From positions 1 through 47,928 of the forward strand of contig JAQCLG010000007.1 in NCBI GenBank assembly GCA_027592745.1: a stretch of 47,928 bases of DNA, in the 5' to 3' direction. Origin of the DNA: Pseudomonadota bacterium. GTDB lineage: Bacteria > Pseudomonadota > Alphaproteobacteria > SP197. Below the pieces are notes generated by a model. It had not been told where the DNA came from and searched no databases. It saw nothing but the letters and a program-made list of their open reading frames with translations. Positions 6,492 through 42,088 of the stretch are shown in pieces. Position 1 is the first letter of the stretch, and the number at the start of each line of letters is the position of its first letter. The translations under genes were made by a program, and so were the position numbers.

Positions 6492-9400
6492 ATGGGCATG
6501 ACCCGCCTGGCCGTCGATATCGGCGGCACCTTCACCGACGTGGTTCTCGAGCGCGACGGCGCACTGCACGGCACCAAGGTTCCAACCACGCCCGAGGGCC
6601 CCCAGCGCGGCTTCCTGGACGGCGTGTTGCGCCTGCTGCGCGAAACCGGCACGGCGCCCGCTGCCATCGGCTCGATCATCCACGGCACGACCCTGGCGAC
6701 CAACGCACTGATCGAGCGCAAGGGCGCCCTCACGGCGCTGATCACCACACGCGGCTTCCGCGACAGCCTGGAGATCGGCTACGAGGCGCGCTTCGACCAG
6801 TACGACATCCAGCTCGAGAAACCCGAGCAGCTCGTGCCGCGCCACCTGCGCTTCACGGTCGAGGAGCGTCTGGCCGCCGACGGCCGCGTGCTCAAGCCGC
6901 TGGACGAGGCCGGTCTTGCAGCGCTCGTCCCGCTGCTGCGCGAGGCCGGGGTCGAGGCCGTGGCCATCGGCTTCCCGCACGCCTATGCCAATGCCGATCA
7001 CGAACGGCGCGCCGGGGCGCTCCTTGCCGGCCTGCTGCCGGAGATCCCGATCAGCCTGTCCAGCGAGGTCTGCTCGGAAATCCGCGAGTACGAACGGCTC
7101 TCGACCACGGTCGCCAACGCCTATGTCCGGCCCAGGATGGCGGGTTACCTCGATGCCCTGGCCCGCGACCTGGCCGGTGCCGGGCTTTCCTGCCCGCTCT
7201 TCATGGTGACCTCGGCGGGCGGCATCACGACGCTGGAGGCGGCCATGGCCTTTCCCATCCGCCTGGTCGAATCGGGTCCCTCGGGCGGCGCCGTGCTGGC
7301 CGAGATCACCGCCGAGCAGAACGGCGCCCGCGACGTGCTCTCCTACGACATGGGCGGCACCACGGCGAAGATCTGCCTGATCGGCGACTACCGCGCCGCC
7401 ACGGCGCGCGAGTTCGAGGCGGCACGCACCGCCCGCTTTGCCAAGGGCAGCGGCATCCCCCTGCGCATCCCCGTGGTCGAGATGATCGAGATCGGCGCCG
7501 GCGGCGGCTCGATCGCCGCCGTCGACAGCCTGCAGCGTGTCGCCGTCGGGCCGCACAGCGCGGGCGCAATGCCGGGTCCGGCCTGCTACGGCAACGGCGG
7601 CGACTGGCCCACCGTGACCGACGCCGACCTCGCCCTGGGCCGCCTGGATGCCGAACGATTCGCCGAGGGCCACCTGCGCCTCGATGCCGGCGCGACCGAA
7701 CGGGCGATCGCGGCCGTCATCGCCGCGCCGCTCGGCCTGAGCGGTCTGGACGGTTCCCGCGCAATCTGCGAGATAGTCGACGAGGCCATGGCCAATGCCG
7801 CCCGGGTCCACGCCGTCGAACACGCCCGCGACCTGCGCACCGCGACGATGATCGCCTTCGGCGGCGCCGGGCCGCTGCATGCCGGGCGGCTGGCCGAAAA
7901 GCTCGGCATCGCCCGCATCGTCGTGCCGGCCAATCCCGGCGTCGGCTCGGCCGTGGGCTTCCTCTCCATGCCGGTCTCCTACGAGGTCGTGCAGAGCCGC
8001 TACATGCTGCTGTCGCACTTCCGCGCCGGCGAGATCGCCGAGGTCCTGGCGGGACTGACCGCAACCGCGCAGGCCGTGGTCGCCCGTGCCGCGCCCGAGC
8101 AGCCGCGCACGATCCGGCGCAGCGCGCTGATGCGTTACATGGGCCAGGGCCACGAGGTCGAGATCGCGCTGCCCGACGGCGAGGTGACGGACGCAACGGC
8201 GCAGGCGCTGCGCGAGGCCTACGGCCGCCGCTACGCCGAACTCTACGGCCGCGCCATGACCGCGGGCGAAATCGAGATCCTGACCTGGACCGTCACCGTG
8301 GCGACCCGGCGGGCGCCGGTGGCGACCGTCGCGGCCGTGCCCGCACGACCCGCTGCCGGGCCGATCGGACGGCGTGCCGTCTTCGATCCCGGATCGGGCA
8401 GGATGCACGACACGCCGGTCTACCTGCGCGATACCCTGGTCCCCGGCATGGCCTTCGACGGCCCGGCGCTGGTCGTCGAGGGCCAGACCACGACCGTGGT
8501 TCCCGCGAGTTTCCGCGCCGGCGTCAACGGCGGCGGCCATCTCGTGCTCGACCGCATCGACACCCAGGCGACCAACGCCGGCGAAGCCGACGACATCCGC
8601 CTGCAGGTCATGTGGAACCGGCTGCAGGCCGTGGTCGACGAACAGGCCGGGGTGCTGATGCGCACCGCGTTCAGCCCGATCGTGCGCGAATCGGGCGACC
8701 TCTCGGTCGGCGTCTTCGACCTGGAGGGCCGCATGCTCGCGCAGGCGGTGACCGGCACGCCGGGCCACGTCAACACCATGGCCGCGGCCTGCGCGAAGTT
8801 CTTCGATGCCTTCCCGCGCCAGACCATGCGGCCGGGCGACATCTACCTCACCAACGACCCCTGGATGGGCTCGGGCCACCTCAACGACTTCGTCGTCGTG
8901 AAACCCTGCTTCCTCGGCGAAAGGCTGGTCGGCTTCGTCTCCTGCACCAGCCACCTGGTCGACATCGGCGGGCGCTGCCTGGGTCCCGACGGCAGCGACG
9001 TCTTCGACGAAGGCCTCTACGTGCCGCCGATCCGCCTGGTCGATGGCGGCAACCTGGCCGAACTCTTCATGACGCTGCTGAAGGCCAACTCCCGCTCGCC
9101 CGAAGCGGCCGAGGGCGACGTCCACGCCCTGATCGCCTGCTGCGAGACCGGCGAGAAACGCCTGGTCGCCATGATGGCCGATTTTGCCATCGACGACCTG
9201 GGCCCGCTCTCCGAGCGCATCCTGGCGACCTGCGAACGTGCGACCCGCGCGCGTATCGCCGCGCTGCCCAAAGGCACCTTCGACTTCGCGATGACGGTCG
9301 ATGGTTACGACGATCCCATCACCATCGAGGCCCGCCTCACCATCGCCGGCGACGACCTCCATCTCGACTTCCACGCCTCGGCGCCGCCCTCGCCCCACGG

Positions 9401-9617
9401 CATCAACGTGCCGCTGAACTATGCCGAGGCCTACACGGTGTTCGGCATCAAGTGCGTCATCGCCCCCGACATCCCCAACAACCACGGCTCCCTGCTGCCG
9501 ATGCGCGTCACTGCAACGCCCGGCACGATCCTGAATGCCGCCAAGCCGGCACCGGTCTGCTCGCGCCACATCCTGGGCCAGCTCCTGCCCGATGTCGCGC
9601 TGGGCTGCCTGGCCTAG
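6492..9617 (+). CDS. HyuA-HyuB fusion hydantoinase/5-oxoprolinase, stopped by in-frame TAG
   Basis: The reading frame encodes a fused ATP-dependent hydantoinase/oxoprolinase. Residues 1 to about 690 are the HyuA part, with the actin-like ATPase start DIGGTFTDVVLE, HGTTLATNALIERKGA, YDMGGTTAKICL, GAGGGSIA and FGGAGPLHA. About 700 onward is HyuB (MRTAFSPIVRESGDLSVGVFD, TNDPWMGSGHLNDFVV). The family opens cyclic amides such as hydantoins, 5-oxoproline or N-methylhydantoin with ATP. Codon 1042 is TAG at 9615-9617. The same frame continues with typical HyuB sequence to 10220, so the full protein would be about 1242 residues, the normal size for fused enzymes. A racemase-like gene follows. The TAG replaces what is usually a polar residue such as Gln (CAG) after GCLA. 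Confidence 0.88.
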   Translation: MGMTRLAVDIGGTFTDVVLERDGALHGTKVPTTPEGPQRGFLDGVLRLLRETGTAPAAIGSIIHGTTLATNALIERKGALTALITTRGFRDSLEIGYEARFDQYDIQLEKPEQLVPRHLRFTVEERLAADGRVLKPLDEAGLAALVPLLREAGVEAVAIGFPHAYANADHERRAGALLAGLLPEIPISLSSEVCSEIREYERLSTTVANAYVRPRMAGYLDALARDLAGAGLSCPLFMVTSAGGITTLEAAMAFPIRLVESGPSGGAVLAEITAEQNGARDVLSYDMGGTTAKICLIGDYRAATAREFEAARTARFAKGSGIPLRIPVVEMIEIGAGGGSIAAVDSLQRVAVGPHSAGAMPGPACYGNGGDWPTVTDADLALGRLDAERFAEGHLRLDAGATERAIAAVIAAPLGLSGLDGSRAICEIVDEAMANAARVHAVEHARDLRTATMIAFGGAGPLHAGRLAEKLGIARIVVPANPGVGSAVGFLSMPVSYEVVQSRYMLLSHFRAGEIAEVLAGLTATAQAVVARAAPEQPRTIRRSALMRYMGQGHEVEIALPDGEVTDATAQALREAYGRRYAELYGRAMTAGEIEILTWTVTVATRRAPVATVAAVPARPAAGPIGRRAVFDPGSGRMHDTPVYLRDTLVPGMAFDGPALVVEGQTTTVVPASFRAGVNGGGHLVLDRIDTQATNAGEADDIRLQVMWNRLQAVVDEQAGVLMRTAFSPIVRESGDLSVGVFDLEGRMLAQAVTGTPGHVNTMAAACAKFFDAFPRQTMRPGDIYLTNDPWMGSGHLNDFVVVKPCFLGERLVGFVSCTSHLVDIGGRCLGPDGSDVFDEGLYVPPIRLVDGGNLAELFMTLLKANSRSPEAAEGDVHALIACCETGEKRLVAMMADFAIDDLGPLSERILATCERATRARIAALPKGTFDFAMTVDGYDDPITIEARLTIAGDDLHLDFHASAPPSPHGINVPLNYAEAYTVFGIKCVIAPDIPNNHGSLLPMRVTATPGTILNAAKPAPVCSRHILGQLLPDVALGCLA

Positions 9618-10220
9618 GTCGTGCCCGATGCCGTGCCTGCCGAAGGCGCCGCCACGCTATGGGACCTGCCGATGAAGGGCCTCGTCGAGGCCACGGGGCA
9701 ACCCTTTGCCGCCGAACTGGTGTTCAACGGCGGCACCGGCGCGCGGCCGTCCAGGGACGGGCTTTCGGCCACCGCCTTCCCGAGCGGCGTCATGGGCAGC
9801 CTGGTCGAGATCACCGAAAGCACGACGCCGATCCTGGTCACCCGGCGCGAACTGCGCCCCGGTTCGAGCGGACCGGGAGAGTTCCGCGGCGGCCTGGGCC
9901 AGGTGATCGAGATCGAGGCCCTGCCCGGCACGCCGCTGGTCGTCTACGGCACGGTCGATCGCGTGCACTTTCCCGCGCGCGGCCGTGCAGGCGGCCAGGC
10001 CGGCGCCTGCGGCCGTTTCGAACACAGCGCCGGCACGCCCTTCTCCGGCAAGGGCTCCTGCACCCTCAGGCCCGGCGAGCGGCTGACCGTGTTCACCCCC
10101 GGCGGCGGCCATGGACCGCTGGCGGCGCGCCGGCCCGAACGTCACGCAAGGGACCGGCGCGACGGTCTCATCGGCGCCGATGCCGCGTCCGGCGGCACGG
10201 CCGGAAATGGAGACGACTGA
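9618..10220 (+). pseudogene. C-terminal part of the HyuA-HyuB fusion, after the in-frame TAG
   Basis: This 200-codon stretch is in the same frame as the preceding gene and directly continues HyuB. It contains VPAEGAATLWDLP, a NGGTGARPSRDG segment typical of HyuB, GSSGPGEFRGGLGQ, and a Gly-rich GGGHGPL near the end. There is no frameshift, gap or other lesion at the junction. If translated separately, it would have to start at an internal codon such as GTG 9621, and no ribosome-binding site is seen. Three readings remain open: a recent nonsense mutation, a base-calling error, or read-through of TAG. The stop at 10218-10220 lies one base before the ATG of the next gene. Confidence 0.75.
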
Positions 10221-10221
10221 G

Positions 10222-10968
10222 ATGGACGGACCAGGCATGGCGGCCTCTCGCGGGCGGGCACGGATCGGCGTCATCGTGCCCTTCTCCAACACCAACCTCG
10301 AACCCGACATGGCGATGCTGCGGCCCGATGGCGTCTCCATCCACACGGCGCGCGCCGGCGGCTACGACCTCGACGCGGTGCCCGATTCCGACCAGATGCG
10401 CAAGTTCGCCGCCGCCGGCCTCGACGACGTGCTGGAATCGCTCTGCGCTGCCCGGCCCGACGTCATCCTCTACGGCTGTACCTCGGCCACGCTGTCGATG
10501 GGCCCCGACTACGACCGGGAATTCTGCGCCCGCATCGAGGCCCGTGCCGGCGTTCCCGCAGTGACGGCGGCGGGCGCCCTGGTCGAGGCGCTCGACGCGC
10601 TCGATGCCCGCACCATCGGCTTCTGCTCGCCCTATACCGAGGAACTCAACCGCGAGGCCGCAGCCTTCCTCGGCGCCTGCGGCTGCCAGGTCATCGCCAG
10701 CGCCTATGTCGGCAGCGATCTCGGCAACTACGGCCAGAGCGGCCTGACACCGCCCGATATCCTGGCCCTGGGCCGGCGCGCGCACCACGAGCGCGCGCAA
10801 GCCATCGTGCTGTCCTGCACCGACATGCGCGCGGTCGAGGTGATCGGGGAGCTGGAGGCCGAAACCGGCCTCCCCGTCGTCACCAGCAACCAGGCCATGA
10901 TGTTCGCCGCGATCCGGCGGCTGGGCCTGACCGACGCGCGCGTGCCGGGCAGGCTGGGCGGGTACTGA
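10222..10968 (+). CDS. Asp/Glu racemase superfamily enzyme (maleate isomerase/arylmalonate decarboxylase-like)
   Basis: This 248-residue cytoplasmic protein has two half-domains, each with a catalytic-type cysteine. The first is in YGCTSATLSMG and the second in LSCTDMRAVEV. The N-terminus GVIVPFSNTNLEPDM and the TGLPVVTSNQAM segment near the end match the maleate isomerase/arylmalonate decarboxylase branch of the Asp/Glu racemase superfamily. Cofactor-free proton transfer on a carboxylate or ring carbon is the expected chemistry. The gene follows the hydantoinase by one base, and racemases often partner with hydantoinases, so a role in the same degradative pathway is likely. ATG 10222 is chosen because GGAG lies nine bases upstream; ATG 10207 is an alternative. 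Confidence 0.8.
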   Translation: MDGPGMAASRGRARIGVIVPFSNTNLEPDMAMLRPDGVSIHTARAGGYDLDAVPDSDQMRKFAAAGLDDVLESLCAARPDVILYGCTSATLSMGPDYDREFCARIEARAGVPAVTAAGALVEALDALDARTIGFCSPYTEELNREAAAFLGACGCQVIASAYVGSDLGNYGQSGLTPPDILALGRRAHHERAQAIVLSCTDMRAVEVIGELEAETGLPVVTSNQAMMFAAIRRLGLTDARVPGRLGGY

Positions 10969-13147: not shown

Positions 13148-15019
13148 ATGGCCCGCGACGACAAGAACATCGTCGAACCGTTCAAGCGCGCCATCACCGG
13201 CACGATGCGGGCCCTTGCCCGCGATCCCGAGCTGGAGGTCAGTTTCGGCGTCCAGGAACCGTCCGCCTCGGGCCACAGCGCCCAGGTGACCCAGCCGCCG
13301 CGCGACCTCGACGCCCACAGCGTCGCGATGACCCGCGGCGAGGCCGATTCCCTAGCCCTGAAGCTGCGCCACCACAATGCCAAGACCCATGCCCGGCGCA
13401 TGCCTGCCGGCGAGATCGGCCGGGCGGTCTACGAGGCCGTCGAACAGGCCCGCTGCGAGAGCCTGGGCGCGCGCCGCATGAAGGGCCTGGCCGAGAACCT
13501 CTCGGTCGTCCTGGAGGAGCGCTGCCGCGCCCGCGGCCTGCACCGCATCGCCAGCCAGGAGGAGGCACCGCTCGCCGACATCCTGGGCCTGCTGGTGCGC
13601 GAGAAGCTGACCGGGCAGGCGCCGCCCCCTTCGGCCACCAAGGCCGTCGACATGTCGCGCAAGTGGCTCGAACACAAGATCGGCGAGGACCTGCAGGCGC
13701 TGGCCGACAACATCGCCAACCAGGACGCCTTCTCCAAGGTCATGCGGACGATGATCTCGCACCTGGAGCTGGCCGACGAGGAAACCGACCAGACCAGCGA
13801 GACCTCCGATCCCGATGCCGCCGACGACCAGAGCGATCCTGACCAGGCCGAAGGCGAGGCCGAGGGCGAATCGGGCGAAAGCGGCAGCGACGACCAGAGC
13901 GAGGCCGACAGCTTCGACGAGCAGGCCGCCGACGACGATTCCATGGCCGCCGATTCGGAGGAATCCGACGACGACCAGATGATGCCCTCGGGCAGCGACG
14001 ACACCGATCCCTCGGGGCGCATGCGCCGGCCCGACAACATGTTCGGCAACCGCCGCGAGCCCCAGTACAAGGCCTACACGACCGAGTTCGACGAGATCGT
14101 CGATGCCGCCGACCTGTGCGATCCCGAGGAACTGGCCCGCCTGCGGACCCAGCTCGACCAGCAGATCGTCCATCTCAAGGGCGTCACCGGCAAGCTCGCC
14201 AACCGCCTGCAGCGCAAGCTGATGGCCCAGCAGAACCGCGCCTGGGAGTTCGACCTCGAGGAGGGCATGCTCGACACCGCGCGGCTCTCGCGCGTCGTCA
14301 CCGATCCCATGCAGCCGCTCTCGTTCAAGATCGAGCACGAGACCCAGTTCCGCGACACCGTGGTGACGCTGCTGATCGACAATTCCGGCTCGATGCGCGG
14401 CCGCCCCATCGGCATCGCCGCGATGAGCGCCGACATCCTGGCCCAGACCCTGGAGCGCTGCGCCGTCAAGACCGAGATCCTGGGTTTCACGACGCGCACC
14501 TGGAAGGGCGGGCGCAGCCGCGAGAAGTGGCTCTCGGAAGGCAAGAACACCAACCCCGGCCGCCTCAACGACCTGCGCCACATCGTCTACAAGGGTGCCG
14601 ACGCTCCCTGGCGGCGCGCACGCAAGAACCTCGGCCTGATGCTGCGCGAAGGCCTGCTGAAGGAGAACATCGACGGCGAGGCCCTGCTCTGGGCCCACGA
14701 GCGCCTCGTGCTGCGCCCCGAGCAGCGCCGCATCCTGATGGTCATCTCCGACGGCGCCCCGGTCGACGATTCGACCCTTTCGGTCAACTCCGGGAACTAC
14801 CTGGAGCGCCACCTGCGCGACGTCATCACCTGGATCGAGACCTTCTCGACCGTGGAACTCATCGCCATCGGCATCGGCCATGACGTGACGCGCTACTACA
14901 AGCGCGCCATCACCCTGGTCGATGTCGAGCAGCTCGGCGGCGCCGTGCTCAACGAGCTTGCCGCCCTGTTCGACGAGGAACCCCGCGGCGGTCGCGGCAA
15001 GGGCCGCAACGCGGCCTGA
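13148..15019 (+). CDS. cobT: CobT-type VWA protein (cobaltochelatase subunit family)
   Basis: This protein of 623 residues is the partner of CobS. It has an N-terminal helical domain, a long acidic linker at about residues 207-287 made of Asp, Glu, Ser and Gln, and a C-terminal von Willebrand A domain whose MIDAS motif DNSGSM lies near residue 411. The VWA domain binds metal and docks on CobN-type chelatases or other clients, while CobS supplies ATP hydrolysis. The gene begins 11 bp after the cobS stop, so the pair is co-transcribed. One Leu codon at 13352 is the rare CTA followed by G, like several others in this window. Confidence 0.9.
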
Positions 15020-17971: not shown

Positions 17972-19627
17972 ATGTCTGCCGCCACCACCATCATCGTTGC
18001 GCCGCGCGAGCGGTTCCGCTCGATCCTGACCTCGCTCGAATCGCTGTTTGCGACGGTACCCCGCGAAACGCCGGTCGTCGTCGAGGGCTGTTCGCCACCG
18101 GATGTCCGGGCGGCGCTTGCCGTCCTGCAGGCCGCGCGCCCCTTCACCTGGATCGCGCGCGACCACTTCGTCACGCCCCACGAGGCGCGCAACATCGGCT
18201 TCGAGACGGTGACGAGCGAGTTCGTCGTCTTTGCCGACAACGACATGATCTACGAGCCCGACTGGCTTGCCCGCCTGGAGGAGAACGCCCGGCGCAATAC
18301 CAGCGACATGGTCGCCCCGGCGATCTGCATCGGCCCGCCGCGTGCGACCACGGTCCATCATGCCGGAGGCTCCCTGGTGATCGACGGCACGCCCGACCGG
18401 CCCCATGTTACCGAACGGCACCGCATGAAGGACGAGGCGCTCGCCGCATTGCGGGACCAGCCCCCGAACGAGGACAACGAAGTCGTCGAGTTCCACTGTT
18501 TCCTGGCACGTTCAGCCTTCATCGCCCGGCATGGCCCCCTCGACGAACGGCTGATTACCCGCGAGCAGATCGACATCGCCCTGCGCGCAGCCCTTGCCGG
18601 TGCCCGCGTGACCTTCGAGGCCGGCGCCGTGGTCACCTACGATGCCCGCGTGCCGTTCGAGCGCGACGACCTCGTCTACCACCTCTTCCGCTGGTCCCAC
18701 GATCTGGCCCGCCGCTCCCTGGACGTCTTCCGCGCCACCTGGGGCACCGAGACCGATGGCACCCGCGTGCTGCACGGCTGGATCGCCAGGCACCGGCTGC
18801 GCGCGATCACCAGCGCCTATCCCGACGAGGCCGCGGCCATGGGGCCCAAACGCTTCCGCACGGAGTTCGCCGCGCCGCTGGAAGCGCGCCTGACCGCACA
18901 AGCCCTGGCAACACGCAGCGATCTGCCGGCGCAGCATCATCCCCGGGCGCTTCCGCGACAGAAGCGCCTGGCCTTCTTTTCCCGCCATGTCGCCGCTGCG
19001 CCCAGTCCGCCTTTCCTGCATCTGGGCGCTGCCCCGGGCAAGTCACGGCCCATGATCGTTGCCAGCATGGCGACGATGCCCTCACGCCACGCCACCCTGC
19101 AAGAGGCGCTGGGCTCGATCCTGCCCCAGGTCGATCGCCTATTCCTGTTCCTGGACGGCTTCGGGGAAGCCGCGGTCGTGCGCCACCCCAGGATCGTGCC
19201 GCTGCGCTCCGAGGCATTCGGGGATCTGGGCGCAGGCGGCAAGCTGCTGGGCCTGACCCTGTACAATCCTGGCGACCTCTACCTGACGCTCGACGACGAC
19301 ATTCGTTATCCCCCGGATTTCGTCGCGCGTATGTGCAGCCACCTGGAAACCACGAAGGGCATGGCTGCCTTCGGCGTTCACGGCAGCGTGCTCAAACCGG
19401 CCCTGAAGTCGTACCTGCTGGATCGCCAGGTCGCCCTGCGCAGCCATGGCCGTCCCCGGCCCAGCAGGGTCGATGTGCTGGGCACCGACGCGGTGCTGTT
19501 CTCCACCGCGCGCCTGGCGTTCGATGTCCGCGAATGGCAGCACCGCAACATGGTCGACCTGCAGTTTGCCGTGGAGTGCGCGCAACGCGGCATCGACCGG
19601 TTCACCGTCGCCCGGCCCGCCGGCTAG
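17972..19627 (+). CDS. Two-domain glycosyltransferase, stopped by in-frame TAG
   Basis: From ATG 17972 the frame gives 551 residues up to TAG at 19625-19627. The first half is a GT2-like nucleotide-sugar transferase: ARNIGFETVTSEFVVFADND contains the DND metal-binding triad near residue 88, with a later REQIDIALRAALAGARVTFE. The second half starts near residue 360 (MIVASMATMPSRHATLQEAL) and has a second acidic triad LTLDDDIRYPPDF near residue 440 plus LGTDAVLFSTA, so it is another transferase-like domain. After the TAG the frame continues for 46 more residues. The gene is alone between two palindromic repeats (17825-17886 and 19771-19850). The acceptor, probably a surface glycan, is not known. 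Confidence 0.8.
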   Translation: MSAATTIIVAPRERFRSILTSLESLFATVPRETPVVVEGCSPPDVRAALAVLQAARPFTWIARDHFVTPHEARNIGFETVTSEFVVFADNDMIYEPDWLARLEENARRNTSDMVAPAICIGPPRATTVHHAGGSLVIDGTPDRPHVTERHRMKDEALAALRDQPPNEDNEVVEFHCFLARSAFIARHGPLDERLITREQIDIALRAALAGARVTFEAGAVVTYDARVPFERDDLVYHLFRWSHDLARRSLDVFRATWGTETDGTRVLHGWIARHRLRAITSAYPDEAAAMGPKRFRTEFAAPLEARLTAQALATRSDLPAQHHPRALPRQKRLAFFSRHVAAAPSPPFLHLGAAPGKSRPMIVASMATMPSRHATLQEALGSILPQVDRLFLFLDGFGEAAVVRHPRIVPLRSEAFGDLGAGGKLLGLTLYNPGDLYLTLDDDIRYPPDFVARMCSHLETTKGMAAFGVHGSVLKPALKSYLLDRQVALRSHGRPRPSRVDVLGTDAVLFSTARLAFDVREWQHRNMVDLQFAVECAQRGIDRFTVARPAG

Positions 19628-19887: not shown

Positions 19888-20604
19888 CTAGGCGAGCGCG
19901 GCGTCGGCTTCGTCGTAGCGCGCGCCCGTCGGGTTGGCGAAGGCGTGATCGGCGTCGTACCAGTAGATCTCGTGGGCCTTGCCGGCCTCCTCCAGCGCCT
20001 GCTCGAAGCCCGACACCATCTCCTCGTTGATGCGCGCGTCCTGCAGGCCGAAATGGCCCTGCACGGTCCCGGCCAGGGGCGCCAGTTCCTCAGGCTTACG
20101 CTCGACGTTGCCGTAGTAGATGACGGTCGCCTGCACCGGGCGCACCAGCGAGGCGTTGAGCGACCAGCCGCCGCCGAAACACCAGCCCACGGTGCCCACC
20201 GCCCCGCTGCCGTCCTCGCGCCCGCGCAGCCAGTCGATCCAGGCGCCGCAGGTCTCGCTGGCCTCCTCGTTCTGCATCGCCTGCATGAAGGTCTTGGCCT
20301 CGTCGGGCGTGGTCGCCACCTTGCCGCCGTAGAGGCCGATCGCCAGGGCGCCGTAACCGCGCGCCACGAAGTCCGCGGCCACGCTCTTGATATAGTCGTT
20401 GAGGCCCCACCATTCGTGGATCAGGACCACCGAGGGGGCCGGCGCCGCGGCAGGCGCGCCCCAGGCCGCGGAAACTTCCCGACCCGAAGCGGTGGCAATC
20501 GTCACCGTTTCGAGGGAGGATGCCGCGGCGCGCGCAGCGTCGGGATTGGCCAGGACCGCAGCCAGGCTGTCGACCGCGACCGGTGCCGCTGCGAACTGTC
20601 TCAT
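19888..20604 (-). CDS. Dienelactone hydrolase family protein, in-frame TAG near the C-terminus
   Basis: This alpha/beta hydrolase is of the carboxymethylenebutenolidase family. The oxyanion region VVLIHEWWGLNDYIK, the nucleophile Cys in VGWCFGGGWSL, the acid Asp in GLQDARI and the His in YDADHAFANP form the Cys-Asp-His set of the family. It hydrolyses dienelactone or related lactones and esters in the cytoplasm. From ATG 20604 it has 238 residues before the TAG; starts at 20625, 20631 and 20679 are in frame but would overlap the divergent lipoprotein gene (20624). The TAG occurs where an aromatic residue is expected, only 12 codons before another stop, so the truncated protein could still be active. 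Confidence 0.82.
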   Translation of the reverse strand: MRQFAAAPVAVDSLAAVLANPDAARAAASSLETVTIATASGREVSAAWGAPAAAPAPSVVLIHEWWGLNDYIKSVAADFVARGYGALAIGLYGGKVATTPDEAKTFMQAMQNEEASETCGAWIDWLRGREDGSGAVGTVGWCFGGGWSLNASLVRPVQATVIYYGNVERKPEELAPLAGTVQGHFGLQDARINEEMVSGFEQALEEAGKAHEIYWYDADHAFANPTGARYDEADAALA

Positions 20605-37219: not shown

Positions 37220-37720
37220 CTACCCCAGCGCGATCATGTGGTTGCCCCAGGGGTCGACGGTCAGGCGATCGTCCGGCCCGGCATAGACCGTGGTGGTCTC
37301 CTCCTCGATGAGCAGGGGGCCTTGCAGGGTCATGCCCGCGGCGAGGTCGGCACCGCGATAGACCGGCGTTGCCATCATGCCGCGTTCGCCGTCGGCGAAG
37401 GCCTGGCGCAGTTCGACCGGTTCGGGCGTCCGCATCGGCCTGCCGTCGCGCGCCGGCGCGATGCGCGGGATCAGGCCGCGGCCCGTGACGTGCAGGGCCG
37501 CCAGCTCGATCTCTCCGTCGGGCTGGATGTGGCCGAACATGCGCTGGTGGGTCGCCTCGAAGGCGGCACGCATGGCGGCGCGGTCGAAGGCCGGCGCGGC
37601 CACGCGGATCGACCACTGCTGGCCGCGGTAGCGCAGGTCGGCGCTGCGCTCCAGCGTCGCCGCATCGCCCGTGAAACCCTCGGCCGAAAGCGCTTCGGCC
37701 GCCTCGGCGTCGAGCGCCTG
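37220..37720 (-). pseudogene. C-terminal third of the second HyuA, after in-frame TAG 37721
   Basis: After the TAG at 37721-37723 the HyuA frame continues with QALDAEAAEALSAEGF, RSADLRYRGQQWSIRV, PDGEIELAALHVTGRGLIPR and ends with LIEEETTTVYAGPDDRLTV and GNHMIALG. This is a normal HyuA C-terminus ending in TAG at 37220-37222. An ATG at 37603 would be the first internal start but lacks a ribosome-binding site. There is no frameshift, so the piece is either the remains of a broken gene, or part of a protein made by TAG read-through. Confidence 0.7.
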
Positions 37721-38017
37721 CTAGGCGGTGGCGATGCGGCTGTCCTCCAGCCTGTCGAGATCGCCGATCAGCACGCGCATGACATCGCGCCGGATGTCGG
37801 CGTTGAGCATGCCCAGGGCGCAGAAGGCGCCGGCCTGGCGCGGCACGTGTACCGTGCTGCAGCCCAGGCGGCGGGCGACGGCGCTGCCGTGCATCGGCCC
37901 GGCGCCGCCGGCGGCGACTAGGATGCAGCGCGCCGGATCGTGGCCGCGCTCGATGCTGATCTTCTCCACCGCGTGCAGCAGGTTCTGCTCGAGCAGGCGC
38001 ACGATGCCCGCTGCGGC
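37721..38017 (-). pseudogene. Middle part of the second HyuA, between two in-frame TAG codons
   Basis: This 98-codon segment continues the same frame between TAG 38018-38020 and TAG 37721-37723. It reads AAAGIVRLLEQNLLHAVEKI, then ERGHDPARCILVAAGGAGPM and HGSAVARRLGCSTV, which are core HyuA sequences that hold the conserved AAGGAGPMHG loop. The absence of any other lesion in this stretch, including an intact Gly-rich loop, argues against long decay. Confidence 0.7.
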
Positions 38018-39289
38018 CTACTCGACGACGAGGCCGAGCGGCCCCGCGACATGTTCCTGGAGCGCCGCGCGTGCCAGGTCGAGGTCCAGGCTGACGGCAC
38101 CGCCGGCATAGGCGCCGGGGCGCAGGCGGCCCAGCACCAGCAGGGCGTCAGTCACCGTCGGGCGCGTCCCGCCCAGGCCGTAGCAGGCCGGCCCCGGCAT
38201 GGCCCCCGCCCCCTGCGGGCCGACGTGCAGCATGCCGCCCGCATCGACATAGGCGATGGTGCCGCCGCCCGCACCCACGGTATGGACGTCGATGGCCGGC
38301 GTGGCGACGTGGTAACCGGCAATCAGCAGGTCGTCGGACAGCGTGACGTCGCCGCCCTGCATCATCACGACATCGCAGCTCGTGCCGCCGATCTCCATGG
38401 AGATCAGGTTGTCGCTGCCGGTCTGGACCGCGACCAGGTTGAGCGCACCCACCGCCGCGGCCGGGCCTGAGAGCACCAGGCTGACCGGCCGGTCGGCGAC
38501 CTGGGCGACCGATGCGGCACCGCCGTTCGACTGCACCAGCAGCATCGGGTGGGCCAGGCCCAGCCCGGTCAGCTCGCGGTCGAGCGCCACGAGATAGGGC
38601 ACCACGCGCGGCGCCAGGCAGGCGTTGACCACGGTGGTCGAGCCGCGTTCGTATTCGCCCATGATCGGCGCGATGGCGCTGGAAAGGCTGATCCAGGGCA
38701 CGTCCAGCACCTCGCCCAGGATGGCGCCGACCTGCTCCTCGTGGCTGCCGTCGAGGAAGCTGTTCATCAGGCAGACCGCGACCGCCTCGACGCCCTCGGC
38801 GCCGAAGATCTCTGCGGCGGCGCGCACGCCCTCGCCGTCGAGCGGCGTCACCTCGTTGCCGTCGCGGTCGAGGCGGCCGGCGACGCCAAGACGCAGGTAA
38901 CGCGGCACCAGCACGGGGGCAAAGGGCGTGCGTTGGTCCCACATGTCCTCGCGCTTGCCCCGCCGGATCTCCAGGCTGTCGCGGAACCCTTCCGTCGCGA
39001 TCAGGCCGACACGGGCGCCCTTGCCTTCCAGCATGGTGTTGGTCGCTACGGTCGAGCCGTGGACGAAGAGCGCGCAGCCGGCCAGCAGCGCACCGGAGGT
39101 CATGCCGAACCGGCCGGCCATCTTCCCAACCGCGGCGATGACGCCGCGCGCGGGATCGTCGGGCGTCGAGGGCACCTTGGCGACGAACAGCGCCCCGGCA
39201 TCGTCGTGCAACACCAGGTCGGTGAAGGTGCCGCCGACATCGACGCCGATGCGCCAGGGCGCGGCAGGCTGGGGTTCGGCGCTGGTCAT
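38018..39289 (-). CDS. HyuA-type hydantoinase/oxoprolinase subunit, N-terminal part, stopped by TAG
   Basis: From ATG 39289 the frame encodes 423 residues of HyuA up to TAG at 38018-38020. Motifs are VDVGGTFTDLVLHD, HGSTVATNTMLEGKGA, EGFRDSLEIRRGKREDMWDQ, SLSSAIAPIMGEYERGST, SMEIGGTSCDV, VGAGGGTIAYVDAGG and GPACYGLGGTRPTVTDA. The full frame to 37220 is 690 codons, the usual HyuA length, with two internal TAG codons (424 and 523). No HyuB gene follows, unlike the fused enzyme at 6492. It could act in ATP-dependent opening of a cyclic amide made by the Rieske/EthD pathway. Confidence 0.85.
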   Translation of the reverse strand: MTSAEPQPAAPWRIGVDVGGTFTDLVLHDDAGALFVAKVPSTPDDPARGVIAAVGKMAGRFGMTSGALLAGCALFVHGSTVATNTMLEGKGARVGLIATEGFRDSLEIRRGKREDMWDQRTPFAPVLVPRYLRLGVAGRLDRDGNEVTPLDGEGVRAAAEIFGAEGVEAVAVCLMNSFLDGSHEEQVGAILGEVLDVPWISLSSAIAPIMGEYERGSTTVVNACLAPRVVPYLVALDRELTGLGLAHPMLLVQSNGGAASVAQVADRPVSLVLSGPAAAVGALNLVAVQTGSDNLISMEIGGTSCDVVMMQGGDVTLSDDLLIAGYHVATPAIDVHTVGAGGGTIAYVDAGGMLHVGPQGAGAMPGPACYGLGGTRPTVTDALLVLGRLRPGAYAGGAVSLDLDLARAALQEHVAGPLGLVVE

Positions 39290-40423: not shown

Positions 40424-41298
40424 GGCCTACCCTGGCGACCCTAGTCGGGGGCAGCGCCATCCTGATGTGGGGCGGCCTGGCGGCGCTGACCGCAACCGCC
40501 GGCGCGGTGCCGCCGCTGCTGCTGACGGCGCTGACCTTCGCCATCGGCACGGTCGTGCTGCTGCTCGCCAGCGCCCTGCGCGGCGTGCGCCTGCTCGCGC
40601 TGGCGCGCCAACCCCTGCGTGTCTGGCTGCTCGGCATCGGCGGCCTGTTCGGCTACCACGTCCTCTACTTCACCGCCCTGCAGAACGCGCCCACGGTCGA
40701 GGCCAGCCTGATCGCCTTCCTCTGGCCGCTGCTGATCGTGCTGCTTTCGGGCCTGCTGCCCGGCGAACGGGTGCGCTGGTTCCACATCCTGGGCGGCATC
40801 GCGGGTTTTGCCGGTTCGGCGATGCTGATGACCGGCGGCCGCTTCGACGGTTTCCGGAGCGAGTATGCGCTGGGGTACGCCGCCGCCCTGGGCTGCGCCC
40901 TGACCTGGTCGGGTTACTCCGTGCTGTCGCGCCGCCTGGGCCAGGTGCCCAGCGACATCGTCGGCCTGTTCTGCGGCGCCACCGCCGTGCTCGCACTGAT
41001 CGCCCATGGCGTCACCGGCGAGGCCACGCGCTGGCCCGAAGGGGCACAGTGGCTGGCCGTGATCGGCCTGGGCATCGGCCCGGTGGGCCTGGCCTTCGTC
41101 ACCTGGGACATCGGCGTCAAGCGCGGCGACATCCGCCTGCTGGGTGTTGCCTCCTACGGTGCGCCGCTGATCTCGACCCTGCTGCTGATCGCGCTCGCCA
41201 TGGCGCCGGGCAGCAGCACGGTGCTGGCCGCCTGCGCCCTGATCGTGGGCGGCGCCGTCATCGCCTCGGGCGACAGCCTGCGCCGCCGCAAGGGCTAG
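40420..41298 (+). CDS. EamA/DMT family transporter, second of a tandem pair
   Basis: This 292-residue protein again has about ten membrane segments and two EamA repeats (SAILMWGGLAALTATAGAVP, TVEASLIAFLWPLLIVLLSG, VGLAFVTWDIGVKRGDIRLL, SYGAPLISTLLLIALAMAPG). It is clearly related to its upstream partner, so the pair comes from a gene duplication. The WDIGVKRG and WDYGMKYG signatures occupy the same place in both. A rare CTA Leu codon followed by G lies at 40441. The stop (TAG) is supplied by the edge of the palindromic repeat that starts at 41297. Confidence 0.88.
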   Translation: MRPTLATLVGGSAILMWGGLAALTATAGAVPPLLLTALTFAIGTVVLLLASALRGVRLLALARQPLRVWLLGIGGLFGYHVLYFTALQNAPTVEASLIAFLWPLLIVLLSGLLPGERVRWFHILGGIAGFAGSAMLMTGGRFDGFRSEYALGYAAALGCALTWSGYSVLSRRLGQVPSDIVGLFCGATAVLALIAHGVTGEATRWPEGAQWLAVIGLGIGPVGLAFVTWDIGVKRGDIRLLGVASYGAPLISTLLLIALAMAPGSSTVLAACALIVGGAVIASGDSLRRRKG

Positions 41299-41358
41299 AG
41301 CGGATCACGATCACCCGGAACCGTTCCACGGTTCCGGGTGATCGTGTGAATCCGCTCT
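41297..41358. repeat. Palindromic intergenic repeat, copy C (different core)
   Basis: AGAGCGGATCACGATCACCC and its near-mirror (ending GAATCCGCTCT) enclose an almost perfect palindrome, CACCCGGAACCGTTCCACGG to TTCCGGGTGATCGTG. Its ends match copy A (GAATCCGCTCT), but the central hairpin is different. It lies directly between the DMT gene and the next repeat and supplies the DMT gene's stop codon. Confidence 0.85.
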
Positions 41359-41371
41359 ACATCAACAGGAT

Positions 41372-41433
41372 AGAGCAAATTCACATCCTTCTGCGCAATC
41401 GCGAAGCGATTCCGCAGAAGGATGATTTGCTCT
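41372..41433. repeat. Palindromic intergenic repeat, copy D
   Basis: This copy is nearly identical to copy B: AGAGCAAATTC, ACATCCTTCTGCG, the AATCGCGAAGCGATT hairpin, CGCAGAAGGATG and GATTTGCTCT. It is joined to copy C by GCTCTACATCAACAGGATAG, the same spacer type that precedes copy B at 19771 (one base different). On the minus strand it provides the TAG stop of the ferredoxin-like gene. Confidence 0.88.
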
Positions 41434-42088
41434 AACACGAACCCAGGAAGGCCGCCATGTGATAGGCCGCCTGGGATGGCAGGTAGGTCGCCTCCCGCCC
41501 GACCGGGCAGGCGCGGCGAGCGCGGCAGCCCAGATCGAGGCAATCGGCCCCTTCCGGACGGCGCAGATGGCCCGCGCAGGCCGGCATGTCATAAGCCTTG
41601 CCGTCGAAGGCGCCGACCGGGCAGGTCGTCAGGCAGGGCTTGTCGGCGCAGCTCTCGCAGGGGCTCGCCACGCCGCCGGGATCGGGCAGGCCCTCGACCG
41701 CCGCGTCGAAGGCCAGCGCACCGCGATAGGCATGCCACAGCCCGTGTTCGGGGTGGATCAGCATGCCGATGGGTGAGGGAAACACCGGTTCGGCCCGCTG
41801 CGCCCAGCGCTGGAAGGGATACCAGGGCGGGCCGTCGAAGGGATAAAGCGCAGCCGCCCCCAGTTCGGTGGCCACGGCGTCGATTGCCTGCCGGCTCCAG
41901 CGGTTCATGGCGTCGGGACCGGGCGTGCGCTGCGCACCGAATACCGGCCACATCGCCGGACCGGCATTGCCGATCATGACGACCACCGCGGGATCGCCCG
42001 GCACGCCGTCGGCGGCTTCCGGTTGGAAGCCGCCGCGCGCGATCAGGCCGAGCGGGGCGAGCCGTGCGGCGATGGTCTCGTAGTGCAT
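41432..42088 (-). CDS. Ferredoxin-like 4Fe-4S protein (QueG-related C-terminal type)
   Basis: This 218-residue protein has a non-cluster N-terminal half (GPAMWPVFGAQRTPGPDAMN, DAVATELGAAALYPFDGPPW) and a C-terminal ferredoxin-like region: CESCADKPCLTTCPVGA plus later cysteines in DCLDLGCRARRACPVG. The pattern resembles QueG-related iron-sulfur proteins, but it lacks the full cobalamin-binding length of QueG (about 380 residues). Electron transfer is likely; the partner is unknown. It begins 6 bp after the GST stop and ends in a TAG formed by repeat copy D. Confidence 0.75.
   Translation of the reverse strand: MHYETIAARLAPLGLIARGGFQPEAADGVPGDPAVVVMIGNAGPAMWPVFGAQRTPGPDAMNRWSRQAIDAVATELGAAALYPFDGPPWYPFQRWAQRAEPVFPSPIGMLIHPEHGLWHAYRGALAFDAAVEGLPDPGGVASPCESCADKPCLTTCPVGAFDGKAYDMPACAGHLRRPEGADCLDLGCRARRACPVGREATYLPSQAAYHMAAFLGSC

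Follow-up and report, generated by a model that had tools for sequence, protein, structure and literature searches.

The interrupted hydantoinase gene

The window analysed here, a stretch of 47,928 nt, corresponds to contig 56 in the draft genome G000, which comprises 3.85 Mb in 263 contigs and is 99% complete. It contains a HyuA-HyuB frame that begins at ATG 6492 on the forward strand and is complete to position 10220, its sole interruption being an in-frame TAG at 9615-9617 (codon 1042). Direct reading of the sequence confirmed what an earlier sequence-only reading had reported, namely that the frame continues past this TAG for 200 open codons, from 9618 to a TGA at 10218-10220. The parts of the gene are as follows, G001 being a genome of the same genus.

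6492..9614, + strand: HyuA domains and first two thirds of HyuB, 1041 aa (PF05378, PF01968, PF19278 and PF02538 positions 1-343; PDB relatives 7hk5 and 6yra)
9615..9617, + strand: in-frame TAG replacing CAG (Gln) (direct reading; CAG in G001; Gln or Lys in most homologues)
9618..10220, + strand: final third of HyuB plus a variable tail, closed by TGA (PF02538 positions 346-514, E 1e-32; dN/dS 0.12 relative to G001 as far as residue 1206)

The read-through frame carries Hydant_A_N, Hydantoinase_A, Hydant_A_C and Hydantoinase_B, all four above the Pfam cut-offs and all in one frame, which agrees with the fusion proposed earlier; the product is predicted from these domains to be a fused ATP-dependent hydantoinase/oxoprolinase-type enzyme. 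The TAG lies two-thirds along the HyuB half, within HILGQLLPDVALGCLA-x-VVPDAVPAEG, where x is the TAG position. The two PF02538 matches adjoin across the TAG with no part missing between them, so the proposal that the site involves neither a frameshift nor a gap also stands. Because these matches adjoin and the base composition downstream of the TAG is of the coding type (GC3 0.855), the downstream open frame is not a product of chance. The dN/dS ratio against G001 is 0.127 before the TAG and essentially the same after it. The 3' end of the fusion gene is adjoined by a gene of the arylmalonate decarboxylase / Asp-Glu racemase family (window 10264-10968, + strand), which is possibly its partner in one pathway.

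Homologues at the TAG site

The G001 copy of the gene shares 87% identity and has no stop. Its codon at the TAG site is CAG, and the difference between the two genes at this site is therefore a single C-to-T substitution, exactly the change that had been predicted before any relative was compared. The expectation of glutamine at the site was likewise borne out by a wider alignment, in which 54 of 115 homologues have Gln and a further 43 have Lys. None of the 115 carries a stop at the site and none is split there; the refuting case named earlier, homologues that end at this point and are followed by a separate downstream gene, was not encountered among them.

Other in-frame stops in the window and genome

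The interrupted fusion gene is not an isolated case, as the window holds five in-frame stops. The remaining four are listed below.

19625..19627, + strand: glycosyltransferase-like gene, in-frame TAG close to its end (G001 codon: TGG)
19888..19890, - strand: dienelactone hydrolase gene, in-frame TAG close to its end (G001 codon: TGG)
37721..37723, - strand: a second HyuA gene, in-frame TAG (G001 codon: TGG)
38018..38020, - strand: second HyuA gene, in-frame TAG at another site (G001 codon: GAG)

The second HyuA gene (window 37223-39289, - strand) shows no frameshift over 689 codons despite its two TAGs, and its dN/dS is 0.15. Elsewhere in the genome, a PutA-like gene on the minus strand of L213, named from reading of the sequence, has a TAA at about 8980 and a TAG at about 9820 (TAT and GAG in G001, respectively). 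Also within the window, a stretch of about 140 bases at about 41295-41435 (13367-13506 of the segment 27929-47928) has copies on many contigs of G001, with identities reaching 96%, and is probably a dispersed short repeat.

A sample of about 1.18 of the 3.85 Mb was examined. In regions aligned with G001, which were partly picked for stops, 33,117 codons yielded 11 in-frame stops for G000 as against two in the reverse direction. In less selected sets, comparison with G001 genes revealed three distinct in-frame stops over 28,024 codons and comparison with G006 genes a further two to three, and the two sets together gave one frameshift in all; no in-frame stops appeared when G006 served as the target. 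The draft carries an excess of in-frame stops, at a density of roughly one per 20-25 kb, and four genes contain two each. Overlapping contigs that could expose errors were absent from the sample.

The codons replaced by in-frame stops, judged by G001, are CAG, TGG, GAG, TAC and TAT, and random single-base change would be expected to yield such a set. TAA, TAG and TGA also occur in shares consistent with the uniform expectation of 19/67/14% under random substitution and G000 codon usage. Coding continuation past gene ends was found in G000 for 31% of TAA, 19% of TAG and 2.6% of TGA ends; the corresponding figures, many of which reflect gene boundaries, are 0%, 11% and 3% in G001 and 9%, 3% and 4% in G006. 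A special meaning of the TAG at 9615 is not supported; in-frame stops are scattered across the genome at residues unrelated to one another, and this codon is one of them. In another genome, G009, a HyuA gene on L026 had been reported with eight in-frame TGA codons; these are explained by frame changes in that assembly, which the alignment shows. The G009 assembly looks indel-rich, and its prfA is in pieces too.

Origin of the in-frame stop

We infer, as the somewhat more probable reading, that the TAG at 9615 is a base error located in the draft assembly and not a mutation in the living cell. In the draft sequence one C-to-T substitution has converted the CAG of an otherwise normal, selected HyuA-HyuB gene to TAG, which is still a stop codon in G000, and this substitution is one of many, dispersed over the whole assembly, that give in-frame stops. 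Low coverage, library damage and PCR error are candidate sources of such errors. Base errors are favored because the substitutions come nearly without frameshifts, are spread over many contigs and fall in genes under normal purifying selection. Consistent with this, at positions invariant in 10 other homologues, the G000 gene has five odd residues besides the stop, mostly radical, versus four in the G001 gene, all of them conservative. Other observations count against base error. It implies about 2 errors per 1000 bases, a high rate for an assembly that has been polished; the excess of residues found only in G000 (91 versus 76 in 14 genes compared with outgroups) is not significant; and the four genes with two stops apiece are a sign of mild clustering, which a small number of dead genes would produce as well.

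It is possible, although we consider it distinctly less probable, that the TAG is real and represents a very recent nonsense mutation, in which case the strain would carry either a young pseudogene or a truncated form of the gene. The double stops in four genes would suit this reading, and the affected genes look dispensable, having catabolic, transport or surface roles. No stop was found inside 18 homologues of essential or core genes (7,497 codons), but only about one would be expected there, so that the zero is weakly informative. The product of a real mutation would end at residue 1041 and lack a third of HyuB. The metal ligands of the related CapB lie within its first 124 residues, and many of its active-site pocket residues lie beyond 343, in the part that would be missing (PMC8453981). 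By this comparison the shortened product would retain the whole of HyuA and the metal ligands of HyuB while missing a good part of the pocket, and is therefore probably inactive. Real gene decay, however, should bring several frameshifts for every nonsense change, judging from general mutation patterns, and hardly any frameshifts accompany the stops observed here. In addition, dN/dS is still 0.12-0.15 in the broken genes.

Coding status of TAG

Recoding of TAG was first considered because a search of the assembly for release factor 1 (RF1) yielded RF2 only and because two more TAGs were present in the second HyuA gene. Since G001 has CAG, TGG, GAG, TAC or TAT at the sites of the in-frame stops, these have no single meaning. 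Of the 679 genes called in a 730 kb sample, 142 (about a fifth) end in TAG, and coding continuation is seen at 27 of the 142, some of which are simply next to another gene. The mixture of G001 codons at in-frame TAGs (CAG, TGG and GAG), together with normal terminator use, is the ground for rejecting reassignment of TAG to one amino acid. A hint by eye in several genes that TAA might encode Tyr was also rejected; two of the sites have TAC or TAT in G001, but these are the expected single-base neighbors, and TAA still ends other genes.

A loss or weakening of RF1 would leave UAG, and some UAA, unassigned and tolerated in working genes, with near-cognate tRNAs inserting Gln, Trp, Tyr or Glu. The replaced residues do include Gln, Trp and Tyr, all reported to be inserted at UAG by E. 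coli lacking RF1 (PMC4434889), and none of the 11 cases aligned with G001 is a TGA, but a zero of that kind would be expected about one time in five. Moreover, TAG serves as terminator much as it does in the relatives and is retained at 11 orthologous gene ends. The absence of RF1 itself appears to have a simpler source. In G001, prfA is present between hemA and prmC, and in G000 contig 128 ends inside hemA (31999 of 32000) while contig 194 ends inside prmC (21666 of 21667). Because these contig ends cut the two G001 neighbors of prfA, the gene presumably falls in an assembly gap, which would explain its apparent absence; RF1 loss is considered very unlikely. G007, another family member, yielded just one RF1/RF2-like gene, probably through an assembly gap as well.

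Least probable are a split gene restarting at GTG 9621, programmed readthrough, and decoding by a suppressor tRNA or as pyrrolysine. The GTG stands two codons past the TAG and the downstream part is under selection, but none of the 37 typed tRNAs, a set from which several expected tRNAs are missing, has a CUA anticodon, the sole PylS-profile match (23.9 bits against a cut-off of 178) resembles those that 13 of 14 control genomes also gave, no Shine-Dalgarno-like motif was seen by eye ahead of the GTG, and the homologues show no split at the site. A pyrrolysine system was rejected on the PylS and tRNA results.

The TAG is thus most likely an ordinary stop that one base change has placed in a normal gene, one of many such stops in this draft, and not a new genetic code. 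If so, it carries a caution, as a draft with a missing RF1 gene and in-frame TAGs can mimic a new code through an assembly gap combined with base substitutions. Codon-by-codon comparison with a relative tells the two apart.

Comparison with known systems

The nearest solved structure is that of a fused N-methylhydantoinase (PDB 7hk5), which aligns over residues 3-1233. The gene of the window resembles this fused ATP-dependent hydantoinase / 5-oxoprolinase family in domain order and in length (about 1240 aa) and differs from it in the TAG at codon 1042. Caprolactamase CapA/CapB (NF050156 and NF050157; related chains in PDB 6yra) is homologous along both halves, although CapAB consists of two chains and the gene described here is a fusion. 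Scores against the caprolactamase NCBIfam equivalog models, 458 and 184 bits, fall far under the cut-off of 1000, so the caprolactamase substrate is not assignable to this gene. With UAG reassignment and RF1-less UAG readthrough, G000 shares in-frame TAGs in conserved genes and an assembly from which RF1 is missing. It differs from both in that the residues replaced are mixed, TAG is still a terminator, no CUA tRNA was found among those typed, and the place of RF1 falls in an assembly gap.
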